A stretch of 39,263 nt of DNA from Nitrospinaceae bacterium (lineage in GTDB: Bacteria > Nitrospinota > Nitrospinia > Nitrospinales > Nitrospinaceae): positions 1 through 39,263 of the forward strand of contig JAHELC010000018.1 of NCBI GenBank assembly GCA_024644405.1. The letters are read 5' to 3'. The notes under the pieces were generated by a model. The model had not been told where the DNA came from, made no database searches, and saw only the letters and a program-made list of their open reading frames with translations. Position 1 is the first letter of the stretch. Each line of letters starts with the position of its first letter. Positions 17,457 through 21,657 of this stretch are shown here, in pieces. The translations under genes and the position numbers were made by a program.

Positions 17457-18437
17457 TCAAAACGGAGTGAACGCCGGGTGCGCCGCCGGATTGCGTGTGT
17501 CAAACCGGTACAGTCCCTCTTCTTGAGCGATACGAATCGTCTCCTGGTGTTCCTCCGAGGTCGTCCGCCGGTTGATTTCGCGGTAACGGTTTTCCGTCAC
17601 CTTCCACGCCGGACGATACTGGTCCATGATGTTGGTATACGCATGCAGTGACACTTCCTGAGCGAGAAACCGCATGATGCGGCGCGCATCTCCTGTGTTC
17701 CCCGGCATCACCAGGTGGCGCACCAGCACCCCGCGTTTCGCCAAACCTGTTTCGTCAAATACGAGGTCGCCCACCTGCTTCTGCATTTCCTGGATGACCG
17801 CCCGCGCCGCCTGCGGATATTTTTTCGCCTTCAGGTATCTCGCCGATAAGCCCTCATCCCAGTACTTGAAATCCGGCATATAGATGTCCACGATGCCGTC
17901 CATCAACCGGATACTTTCCAGCGAATCGTACGCGCCGGTGTTGTACACCAGCGGCAGTCTGAGGCCCATCTGCACCGCGAGCGGGAGGGATTCCAGAATT
18001 TGCGGCACCACATGTTCGGGCGTCACGAAATTGATATTGTGGCACCCCTTTTCCTGCAACGCGAGCATCATCTGTGCGAGGGTTTCCGGTCGCGCTTCCA
18101 CGCCGTCACGGTCCTGACTGATCTCGAAATTCTGGCAGAATACGCACTTCAGGTTGCACATCGAGAAAAAGATCGTGCCGCTGCCGTTCCAGCCTCGCAG
18201 GCAGTCTTCTTCGCCGAAATGGGGAAAGTGGCTCGACACCCAGGCATATCTCCCGGTTTTGCAGAGCGCCCATTCGTCTTTGAGGCGGTCGACCTCGCAA
18301 TCGCGCGGGCACACCTTGCAACTTTTCAGGTGCTGGAGGCCTTGCCGCGACCGGCGATACAGTTCTCCCGTCCGGAACAGCTTCATATACGCCGGTTCAA
18401 AATCCTTGGAATTGATTTGAAAATCTTGGGTATTCAT
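17457..18437 (-). CDS. Radical SAM protein, PflX-like (COG1313 type)
   Basis: The 326-residue product resembles the PflX-like proteins often named putative pyruvate formate-lyase activating enzymes, whose real substrate is unknown. The N-terminal part has two cysteines in CKVCPRDCEV plus a third in WALCKTGRY. It is followed by the radical SAM cluster CNLKCVFCQN (CX3CX2C), which binds the 4Fe-4S/SAM centre. Downstream blocks include TPEHVVPQI and DIYMPDFKYWD, then VLVRHLVMPGN, typical of the family. The start at 18437 has a gaggga site. A longer frame to 18473 lacks one. No glycyl-radical enzyme gene is nearby, so a pyruvate formate-lyase role is not supported here. Confidence 0.85.
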   Translation of the reverse strand: MNTQDFQINSKDFEPAYMKLFRTGELYRRSRQGLQHLKSCKVCPRDCEVDRLKDEWALCKTGRYAWVSSHFPHFGEEDCLRGWNGSGTIFFSMCNLKCVFCQNFEISQDRDGVEARPETLAQMMLALQEKGCHNINFVTPEHVVPQILESLPLAVQMGLRLPLVYNTGAYDSLESIRLMDGIVDIYMPDFKYWDEGLSARYLKAKKYPQAARAVIQEMQKQVGDLVFDETGLAKRGVLVRHLVMPGNTGDARRIMRFLAQEVSLHAYTNIMDQYRPAWKVTENRYREINRRTTSEEHQETIRIAQEEGLYRFDTRNPAAHPAFTPF

Positions 18438-18830
18438 ATTCCCTCGATATCTGATAATCAGCATTATAAACATTTAAATTTGATCCTGCAGGGATGTGAC
18501 GCCGCCCGGTGGGGTGAGTTTGAAAGCGAATAAAAAACGAAAATTAGGATCAATAAAAATGCGGTTCGCGAATGGCTAAGAATAGTGCTATAGTGATAAG
18601 CCTTGCCACGGCAAGTCAATTACTCCTTTCCTTGATGCCATCCCGGCGGTTCCACCCAAACATCAAAAGCGGTATAAAATGATTGACAAATAAATAATAA
18701 CCGTTTAAGTTAGGAGAGAACCCCAAGAAGTAATACTTCCTAAACCCTCTGAAATCAATCAAATATCCGGATAATCCCGCGAAATGGTTTCCATATAGAG
18801 AGTCTCTTGAGGGGATTCTGAGACATCTCC
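18438..18830. other. Non-coding stretch between divergent radical SAM gene and rho
   Basis: This AT-rich 393-base stretch carries no convincing gene on either strand. The short frames in it have no binding site or family resemblance. It holds a small inverted repeat cttgccacggcaag at 18602-18615. A weak promoter-like pair lies at 18683-18711: a perfect ttgaca, a 17-base spacer and a poor taagtt. A 5-base GGGGA/TCCCC inverted repeat with a 12-base loop lies at 18811-18832, just before the C-rich rho leader. Transcription of rho presumably begins inside it. Confidence 0.5.
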
Positions 18831-18926
18831 CCAAACCCACTCGATCACATACGCAAACACAAGGCAATCATCAACCACAAGACAATTCACAGTCCATCCA
18901 CCTAACCTTTTACCCAACGACCACCC
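18831..18926 (+). promoter_or_regulatory. C-rich, G-poor rho leader, probable Rho-utilisation (rut) site
   Basis: By direct count these 96 bases contain 39 C, 36 A, 14 T and only 7 G. They end at the rho ATG, and the C-rich, G-poor character continues into the first codons. Such an unstructured C>G bubble with many YC dinucleotides is what Rho binds. In E. coli rho limits its own expression by terminating in its leader, so autogenous control is the natural reading here. No Shine-Dalgarno sequence is present before the ATG. Confidence 0.6.
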
Positions 18927-20204
18927 ATGACTGAAACGACACAACCACCCACCACCAATATTGAAGAATTAAAAAGCAAAACCATTTCCGAATTGACCAA
19001 TCTGGCGAAGACTCTGAAAATTCAGGGTCATAGCGGTTTAAAAAAGCAGGATTTGATCTTCAAGATACTCCAGGTCCAGATCGAAAAAGAAGGTCTGATG
19101 TTCGGCCAGGGTGTTCTGGAAATTCTACCGGACGGATTCGGATTTCTGCGGGCACCCACCTATAACTACCTGCCGGGCCCGGATGACATTTACGTTTCCC
19201 CTTCGCAGATACGCCGCTTCGACATGCATACCGGAGATACGATCTCCGGGCAGATCCGTCCGCCCAAGGAAAATGAGCGGTATTTCGCTTTGTTGAAGGT
19301 TGAGGCCATCAACTTTGAGAACCCGGACAAAACCAAAGACAAGATCCTGTTCGACAACCTGACGCCGTTGTATCCCGAGGAGCGTCTGCGTCTGGAAACT
19401 CCGAACAGCAAGGATTACAGCGCGCGTATCATGGATCTGATGACGCCGATAGGCAAAGGCCAGCGCGGCCTGATCGTGGCCCCGCCGCGAACGGGTAAAA
19501 CCATGCTGTTGCAATCGATCGCCAACAGTATCAGCACCAATTTCCCGGAAGTGGTCCTCATTGTGTTGTTGATTGACGAACGTCCGGAAGAAGTGACGGA
19601 CATGCAACGGTCGGTCAAGGGCGAGACCATCAGCTCCACCTTCGACGAGCCGGCCCAGCGCCACGTCCAGGTTGCGGAAATGGTGATCGAAAAGGCCAAA
19701 CGGCTGGTCGAGCACAAGAAGGACGTGGTGATTCTCCTGGACAGCATCACCCGGCTGGCGCGGGCTTACAACGCCATCGTGCCGCCCAGCGGCAAAGTGC
19801 TTTCCGGGGGTGTGGATTCCAACGCCTTGCAACGGCCCAAACGGTTTTTCGGCGCCGCCCGGAACCTCGAGGAGGGGGGCAGTCTCACCATCATCGCCAC
19901 CGCGCTGGTGGATACCGGAAGCCGCATGGACGACGTCATTTTTGAGGAATTCAAGGGCACCGGCAACATGGAAATCGTCCTCGACCGGAAACTGGCCGAC
20001 AAACGGACATTCCCCTCGATCGATATCAACCGGTCCGGCACCCGAAAAGAGGAGTTGCTCATGGAAGAGGAGGAATTACAACGCATTTGGCTGCTTAGAA
20101 AAGTTTTGCTCCCCATGGGCATCCATGATACGATGGAGCTCTTACTCCAGAGAATGAAAGAAACCAAGACGAACGCCGAGTTTATCCAATCGATGAACTC
20201 CTGA
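18927..20204 (+). CDS. rho: Transcription termination factor Rho
   Basis: Rho is a hexameric RNA-dependent ATPase that ends transcription and suppresses antisense RNA. The 425-residue product has the N-terminal helical domain (about 12-52) and the cold-shock-like RNA-binding domain with GFGFLR at 70-75. The ATPase core has Walker A APPRTGKT at 185-192, Walker B in VVILLDS near 267-273, the Q-loop [11 protein letters not shown] at 292-302 and the R-loop GTGNME at 344-349. Length is close to E. coli Rho (419), with no large insertion. The ATG lacks a Shine-Dalgarno site and lies in a G-poor leader. It is followed by rpmE after 33 bases. Confidence 0.97.
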
Positions 20205-20237: not shown

Positions 20238-20498
20238 ATGAAAGCTGAGATTCATCCGGAATATCATGAAACCACCTTTGTCTGCGCCTGTGGCAACAAA
20301 GTGGATGTCCGTTCCACGGTCAAGGACCAGCATGTCGAAATCTGTTCTGCCTGTCATCCATTCTTTACCGGCAAGCAGAAACTGGTGGACAGCGCCGGAC
20401 GGATCGAGAAATTCACCCGGAAATATCAGAAAGCCAAAGCGGCCAAATCATCCAAGGCGACCCAAGAAGTTCCGGCCGAAGAATCCGCTCCCAATTAG
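20238..20498 (+). CDS. rpmE: 50S ribosomal protein L31, zinc type
   Basis: L31 bridges the 50S central protuberance and the 30S head. The 86-residue product is the zinc form, with Cys16, Cys18, Cys36 and Cys39 in CACGN and [13 protein letters not shown]. It then carries an extra C-terminal tail of about 20 residues rich in Lys, Ala, Ser and Glu. The usual type is about 65-75 residues long. The start has a gagagg site. The rho-rpmE-prfA-prmC order is well known in several bacterial groups. Confidence 0.96.
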
Positions 20499-20586: not shown

Positions 20587-21657
20587 ATGTTTGAACAGTT
20601 AGCTGAAATTGAAAAGCGATACGAGGAGCTCAATCAATTGATGAGTGATCCCAAAGTGATCCAGCAACAGTCGGAATTCCAGAAGCTGGCCAAGGAGCAG
20701 TCCGAGATTGCCCAAGTCGTCAAGGAATACCAGGTATGGAAAAAAAACGCGCGTCAGTTGGAAGAGAACCAGAAAATCCTGGAAGAGGAAAAGGATGCGG
20801 AATTGGTGGACCTGGCCCGGGAAGAGGTCGAATCCCTGGTACAGCAAAAAGAAAAGAATGAAATGCAGTTGAAATTTTTACTGCTTCCCAAAGATCCGCG
20901 CGACGCTAAAAACGTAATTATGGAAATCCGGGCGGGAACCGGTGGCGACGAAGCGGGTTTGTTCTGCGCCGATCTGTTCAGGATGTATTCGCGTTATGCT
21001 GAAACCTTGAATTGGAAAGTGGACATCATGAGCAGCAATGAAACCGGTGTCGGCGGGTTCAAGGAAGTGATTTTCAGCATCCAGGGCAAGGGCGTATTCA
21101 GCAAACTCAAATATGAGGCCGGGACCCACCGGGTCCAACGGGTGCCGACCACCGAAACGCAGGGACGCATCCATACCTCGGCGGTGACAGTGGCGATTTT
21201 ACCCGAAGCGGAGGATGTTGACGTCCAAGTGAATCCGGCAGACCTGAAAGTAGATGTCTACCGTTCTTCCGGACCGGGAGGTCAAAGTGTCAATACCACC
21301 GATTCGGCTGTACGGATCACCCACGTGCCCAGCGGTATTGTGGTCACCTGCCAGGATGAAAAGTCGCAGCACAAAAACAAGGACAAGGCGATGAAAGTTC
21401 TGCGTGCCCGTTTGTACGATGAGGAACAACGCAAACAGCAGGAGGAGTTGTCGGCGAACCGAAAGCAACAGATCGGGAGCGGAGACCGGAGCGAACGGAT
21501 TCGGACCTACAATTTCCCCCAGGAGCGGGTGACGGATCACAGGATTGGCTTGACTCTCCACAAGCTGTCCCAGATCATGGAAGGCGACCTCAATGAACTT
21601 CTGGAAAAAGTTACCCTGTATTTCCAGGCCGAAGCCTTGAAGGGCAGTCAAAACTGA
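20587..21657 (+). CDS. prfA: Peptide chain release factor 1
   Basis: RF1 reads UAA and UAG stop codons and triggers hydrolysis of the peptidyl-tRNA. The 356-residue product has a long helical N-terminus, the block [13 protein letters not shown], the stop-codon tripeptide at 187-189 and the catalytic GGQ at 231-233 in [17 protein letters not shown]. The tripeptide is Pro-Thr-Thr, a member of the PxT set that defines RF1 (RF2 has SPF). The ATG has no clear Shine-Dalgarno site. The 88 bases before it hold small palindromes around 20565-20580. It is followed by prmC, which encodes the enzyme that methylates the GGQ glutamine. Confidence 0.97.

Follow-up and report, generated by a model that had tools for sequence, protein, structure and literature searches.

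According to the available part of PMC6582626, rho controls its own expression in E. coli and other bacteria through attenuation within its leader, and in Salmonella the small RNA SraL pairs with the rho leader and acts on it. Small changes in the level of Rho have been attributed to autoregulation (PMC5449661, available part). For rho of B. subtilis, the accessible sections of PMC12350095 describe a pair of Rut sites for E. coli Rho, one in the 5′UTR and one in the upstream coding sequence, and no Rut site there with B. subtilis Rho. They also extend C>G bubbles to B. subtilis and state that no set of descriptors reliably separates Rut from other sequence. Nothing on the rho leader was found in the portion of PMC10319736 at hand. 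Among the titles listed for rho leaders, rut sites and Nitrospina transcription none concerned the rho leader of the clade examined here, which is weak evidence of absence.

The locus described here lies in a stretch of 39,263 nucleotides from a Nitrospinaceae bacterium, called the window below, which is contig 15 of a 2.98-Mb assembly (40 contigs, 95.8% complete). An earlier note on this DNA had pointed to an excess of C over G before rho and read it as an autoregulatory rut site. Judging from comparison with related genomes, the rho leader probably serves as a rut site on which Rho loads to regulate its own gene. Such regulation has been described in E. coli and B. subtilis; the extreme, order-wide form without a Shine-Dalgarno (SD) motif is a new case.

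The E. coli rho leader, which we take to be 255 nt long, resembles that of the window in extending over a few hundred nucleotides and in having C>G overall (C 63, G 44). Its skew is mild, however, with a rut ratio of 1.35 against 5.2 in the window, and it carries an annotated leader peptide gene, rhoL, whereas the only ATG in the leader of the window opens a four-codon frame whose length varies in the genus. A further difference is that rho of the window has no SD motif and is followed by rpmE and prfA. The E. coli leader is not extreme though the mechanism is known there, and extreme composition is therefore not required. The Rut sites on both sides of the start of B. subtilis rho (PMC12350095, available part) are matched in the window by a skew that crosses the start codon.

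The rho locus and the genomes compared

Table 1. Positions of rho, its neighbours and the elements upstream of it in the window.
Feature	Position	Strand	Details
Radical SAM gene	17457–18473	divergent from rho	5′ neighbour of rho
−35 box TTGACA, inferred rho promoter	18683–18688	+	exact box in 54/56 rho loci of the order
−10 box TAAGTT, inferred rho promoter	18706–18711	+	17-nt spacing; kept as TAnnnT
Inferred rho 5′ leader	18719–18926	+	208 nt, 67 C, 26 G; start placed 7 nt past the −10 box by inference
C-rich stretch first reported	18831–18926	+	39 C, 7 G, no Shine-Dalgarno motif
Best 78-nt rut-like window	18875–18952	+	C/G 5.5, C every 11–13 nt; spans the start codon
rho	18927–20204	+	425 aa; Pfam Rho_N, Rho_RNA_bind, ATP-synt_ab; first ~11 codons equally C-rich
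rpmE (ribosomal protein L31)	20238–20471	+	Pfam Ribosomal_L31; directly after rho
prfA (release factor)	20587–21657	+	Pfam PCRF and RF-1; name from position before prmC

Rho of the window is 91% identical to Rho of an uncultured Nitrospina sp. (L003). Its Rho_RNA_bind domain scored 116.4 bits in Pfam and its RNA-binding segment is nearly identical to those of solved Rho chains, with a 22-residue stretch and IRPPKE in common. By this domain match and comparison the protein has the primary RNA-binding site for C-rich RNA. Pfam matches give the gene order 3′ of rho as L31, release factor, PrmC and EPSP-synthase/MurA family, the names rpmE, prfA, prmC and murA being our interpretation of these matches.

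The order (Nitrospinales) was sampled through 56 readable rho leaders from 64 genomes of the genus, family and order, the genome of the window included; the genomes outside the 56 are G006, G031, G037, G049, G053, G057, G062 and G063. Duplicates over the 100 nt compared were dropped, namely L003 (identical to L108) and L005 (to L143), as was L001, which is the window itself. A second rho copy in G050 stands outside the counts, and the upstream DNA of L040 was too short for the 80-nt measure. The outgroup consisted of 10 of the 13 genomes of the same class, with G072, G073 and G075 left out, and 4 of 23 more distant genomes were read (G084, G095, G096, G099). Within the order, rpmE lies at most 5 kb downstream of rho on the same strand at 53 of the 56 loci, prfA is present at 52, and prfA is likely to be in the same operon as rho. 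The rho match of one genome of the same class (L143, G064:C232:3353-4612) contains an in-frame TAG.

Composition of the DNA before rho

The count of 39 C and 7 G in the 96 bases before the rho ATG, as first reported, is exact (A 36, C 39, G 7, T 14). The highest plus-strand C−G over 96 nt anywhere in the window is at 18865–18960 (39 C, 6 G), which overlaps this stretch. The skew extends into the coding sequence, with 52 C and 10 G in 18831–18960, that is, the end of the leader and about 11 codons. The extent first given is truly skewed but the region is larger, comprising 18719–18926 plus about 11 codons. The neighbouring coding DNA had been called G-rich; this did not hold for rho up to 19400, where (G−C)/(G+C) ranges from −0.21 to +0.23, though the plus strand is mildly G-rich overall, with a mean C−G of −3.3 per 96 nt over the whole window.

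The earlier note had proposed scanning C minus G across all leaders of the genome. A sample of 624,724 bases was used, made up of the window and 40 stretches of the 2.98-Mb assembly. For the last 96 nt of the leader, rho stands first of the 251 leaders sampled, with a C−G of 32 and the next at 24. Over the best 80 nt the rho leader scores 26, a value reached in 2 of 266 other leaders, L174 (34) and L176 (26), the second of which looks like a miscalled start. Control genes and starts came from a crude longest-ORF caller, so some of the control leaders are wrong. Such a skew is not unique in this DNA as such: 96-nt windows with a C−G of at least 32 occur at four places, rho being one, in 309,448 bases read on both strands. 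In three order genomes the best 80 nt of the rho leader were matched or beaten by 1 of 34 (G008), 0 of 39 (G017) and 0 of 18 (G026) other leaders, and in two outgroup genomes by 7 of 33 (G065) and 4 of 9 (G067).

L174:102-311 (G000:C23), with a C−G of 34 in 80 nt and a rut ratio of 9.5, surpasses rho in both best-80 C−G and rut ratio, as no other sampled leader does. The ORF behind it begins MKKVIIIGGGIAGLAAAYRIQEE and looks, by eye, like a protoporphyrinogen-oxidase-type flavoprotein.

An inferred promoter and a step in composition

A promoter was sought as an exact TTGACA followed 16–18 nt on by TAnnnT, 150–300 nt before the start codon. The pattern is present at 54 of the 56 rho loci of the order and turns up 0.0047 times per mononucleotide-shuffled sequence. 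Across the genome of the window it is matched at 124 places and its reversed form, the control, at 49, so that a single match is a fair but uncertain promoter; a simple promoter scan did not report the rho boxes. The DNA upstream of rho can be aligned within the genus and shows TTGACA, 17 nt and TAAGTT. With the start placed by inference at these 54 of 56 loci, the C-rich stretch falls within the 5′UTR of the rho transcript, and the leaders are 155–223 nt long (mean 198).

The whole inferred leader has C>G at 54 of 54 loci and C≥2G at 52, whereas 5′ of the promoter C exceeds G at just 13 of the 54. With the 54 loci aligned on the inferred start, the C/G skew is −0.13 to −0.30 upstream of it and rises to +0.51 and then +0.69 over the two 20-nt bins that follow. 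It is positive along the entire leader (minimum +0.13 at 60–80), stands at +0.80 between −40 and −20 relative to the start codon, where G is lowest at 0.04, and drops below zero after about codon 20 of rho.

Controls were drawn from 37 other promoter-led leaders of the genome of the window, taken from the 30 loci listed first for the promoter pattern, 40 further stretches and the stretches sampled before. C>G was seen in 17 of the 37 and C≥2G in 4, all of 44 nt or less, while none of the 13 leaders of at least 100 nt had C≥2G. In a smaller promoter-led control, drawn from several genomes and including five leaders that are also among the 37, 1 of 8 had C≥2G. These figures bear on the view that the excess is a neutral strand or mutational bias, in which non-coding or transcribed DNA drifts to C>G on the rho strand. 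Leaders near rho in the order are indeed somewhat C>G, with a best-80 control mean of 10.9 against 7.4 in the genome sample of the window, as this view would have it. A drift of this kind is nevertheless hard to square with a skew that reverses inside one intergenic region, at the inferred start, with control leaders that pool to C 880 and G 925 and include no comparable step, or with a plus strand that in the window has G>C on average. A neutral origin is highly improbable.

Conservation and turnover in the order

The rut-site reading had been made to depend on related genomes keeping the C>G excess, and they do: C>G holds in the last 100 nt before rho in all 56 readable leaders of the order. 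Within the genus the leaders are 0.82–0.90 identical to that of the window and all 7 have C 56–67 and G 23–29. Between genera the sequence has turned over. Among 14 representatives, identity in 84 of 91 inter-genus pairs is less than 2 sd above that of shuffled sequences (mean 0.656, shuffled 0.636), yet all 14 leaders are C>G. It seems that composition has been kept rather than inherited sequence and, since the sequence turns over while the composition stays, this points to selection on the composition of the rho leader RNA. The genomes are related by descent and hence the 54 loci are not a count of independent events. Support is weaker in a stricter test with just the few neighbouring leaders as controls, in which 31 of the 52 order loci, against an expected 17.7, had rho as the local C>G maximum (P 8.5e-5).

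The same turnover bears on the alternative that the leader is the target of some other RNA-binding factor or small RNA, its C-richness serving that partner. SraL pairing with the Salmonella rho leader (PMC6582626, available part) offers a precedent, and short blocks are kept within genera, for example TAACCTTTTACCCAAC before the start codon in 7 of 7 genus members, as is long-range CGAAAGC/GCTTTCG complementarity in part of one family. Shuffle-level identity in most inter-genus pairs is unlike a fixed binding site, however, and no Rfam family was found in the window at gathering scores. Such a partner is decidedly unlikely to account for the leader.

Shine-Dalgarno motifs and the start of rho

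None of GGAG, GAGG, AGGA and AAGG occurs in the 20 nt before the rho ATG of the window, the nearest SD-type trimer in the scan being AGG at 18862. The lack of an SD site in the earlier note is thus borne out, and 53 of the 56 order members likewise have none; the other three (L131, L133, L135) have AAGGA near −17. For other genes of the order an SD was found at 23 of 53 rpmE, 13 of 52 prfA and 10 of 20 prmC, and in the 10 outgroup loci at 10 of 10 rho, 10 of 10 rpmE and 1 of 8 prfA. A lenient test found an SD in 191 of 407 called genes in the genome of the window, and prfA and prmC of the window also have none. Absence is common in the genome and so by itself no sign of regulation. As the regulatory hint for which it had been taken, the absence is real and more consistent at rho (53/56) than at rpmE (30/53), but its weight is reduced by being common genome-wide. 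Since SD use is low across the genome, the loss at rho accentuates a genome-wide trend. A 16S rRNA gene, wanted for its anti-SD, was not found in the 95.8% complete assembly.

Rho of the genus has its start some ten codons 5′ of the one that is common in the order (ATGAATATTGAAGA and variants). These added codons are C-rich and the skewed RNA therefore continues through the start codon. In the window they occupy 18927–18956 and encode a ten-residue N-terminal extension of Rho at a position that is untranslated leader in most order relatives.

A C-rich, G-poor leader might instead serve translation without an SD, by providing an open, unstructured initiation region, with Rho not involved. The contrast in SD between order rho genes (3/56) and outgroup (10/10) would fit, as would the G minimum of 0.04 just 5′ of the start codon. 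However, a skew almost as strong is present over the first 40 nt of the transcript, well away from the start codon, and this is not explained by an initiation region. Moreover, 216 of the 407 genes do without an SD and yet have no such leaders, rho being first of 251, and ribosomal protein S1 prefers A/U-rich over C-rich RNA. We think this explanation unlikely.

Rut-like features

Leaders were also scored with the rut half of RhoTermPredict, re-implemented from the available part of PMC6407284, which looks for C>G and a C every 11–13 nt in 78 nt. The rho leader gives a C/G ratio of 5.2 alone and 5.5 with 30 coding nt. Rut scoring of leaders, suggested in the earlier note, sets rho apart from nearly all others, the ratio of 5.2 being reached by 1 of 266 in the genome sample of the window. 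In the order 46 of 54 leaders receive a rut call (26 of 54 with a ratio of at least 3), against 4 of 10 in the outgroup. In the E. coli table of PMC6407284, as far as available and summed here, C/G is at least 3 in 37 of 4,494 validated predictions.

The YC register of the rho leader, a chain of 5, is equalled or bettered in 25 of 122 leaders of 210 nt and is hence ordinary. No pause element of the consensus type, the type scored, was found in the 150 nt after the best rut-like window, and a simple scan found no intrinsic terminator in 18450–19000. Folding of the leader is no weaker than that of its shuffles (z 0.30). It is ordinary for the composition, so openness is due to composition alone.

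Rho leaders outside the order

In the outgroup, which is Nitrospinota outside the order, 8 of 10 rho loci have a TTGAC-type promoter and a long leader, on a looser search than that used for the order. These leaders pool to C 401 and G 357, with C>G in 5 of 8 and C≥2G in 1 of 8; the last 100 nt before rho have C>G in 4 of 10, and rho tops the local C>G ranking at 7 of 10 loci, with 3.0 expected (P 0.008). They are like the order of the window in having a promoter-like site, a long leader and, frequently, a local C>G maximum, but unlike it in their leader composition and in that an SD is always present. Because the outgroup loci also have the promoter-like site and long leader, the long rho leader looks old, while the extreme skew and the loss of the SD look derived in the order. 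The four more distant rho leaders have C>G in none and an SD in all.

For other phyla, 76 loci were used from the best 80 of at least 590 by similarity to Rho of the window, with phylum labels from record titles; being the best-scoring loci, they are no random sample of bacteria. The rho leader is the local C>G maximum in 30 of the 76 (13.6 expected, P about 5e-6). Acidobacteriota stand out with 17 of 28 (4.8 expected), followed by Alphaproteobacteria (6/9), Nitrospirota/Methylomirabilota (3/5), Myxococcota/Bdellovibrio (2/4), Magnetococcales (1/2) and others (1/7). Desulfobacterota-like (0/13) and Omnitrophota (0/8) leaders do not stand out.

Proposed mechanism

Taken on its comparative evidence, autoregulation by Rho is the best supported explanation of the leader. 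From the promoter at 18683–18711, RNA polymerase would transcribe an untranslated leader of about 208 nt that is rich in C and poor in G. An ample pool of free Rho would load on this RNA, chiefly between about 18830 and the first codons, and end transcription within the leader or early in rho. This predicted termination would lower synthesis of Rho and, if the putative operon is transcribed as one, of the products of rpmE, prfA and prmC behind it. When Rho is scarce, transcription would read through the leader.

A wider proposal is that the start region of rho in the order is a single uninterrupted rut site standing in for the ribosome-binding site, with Rho and the ribosome competing for the same RNA and Rho feeding back on both transcription and translation of rho, thereby determining how much L31 and release factor 1 is made from the shared operon. 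This seems doubtful as a whole; translational competition at the rho start may be possible. If the reading were true, it would suggest that a rut site can substitute for an SD site at a start codon.

Comparative analysis by itself yields a sharp signature in RNA composition, which begins at the inferred start and outlasts the turnover of sequence. As it was found by comparison, rho autoregulation can be searched for in bacteria known from sequence only. The rut-site reading of the earlier note is thus partly supported, by the C>G kept in relatives, the step at the inferred start and the rut rule, but the boundary repeat that went with it is not.

Other elements of the leader

The GGGGA/TCCCC repeat is present in the window (18811–18815/18828–18832). 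It had been offered as a boundary or pause element but, in an alignment read by eye, occurs in 1 of 7 genus members and was rejected as a functional element, being put down to chance. A folded element in the leader was likewise rejected, the leader folding no better than its shuffles.

A consensus fold of 27 order leaders gave the CGAAAGC/GCTTTCG pairing, across a C-rich loop and near leader positions +3 and +62 to +67. It occurs in part of one family (L099, L100, L102, L106, L107, L109, L115, L116, L118, L150) and was set aside as it is missing from the genus of the window. L119 has CAAGAGC/GCTTTTG instead, which are also able to pair.

No rhoL-type leader peptide gene was found in the leader of the window, an absence that is not defining for the wider mechanism, and a leader peptide was rejected since no conserved frame was seen in the genus. 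The only ATG in the leader opens the four-codon frame ATG GTT TCC ATA TAG at 18784–18798. In the genus alignment, by eye, this ATG recurs in several relatives with a frame of varying length.
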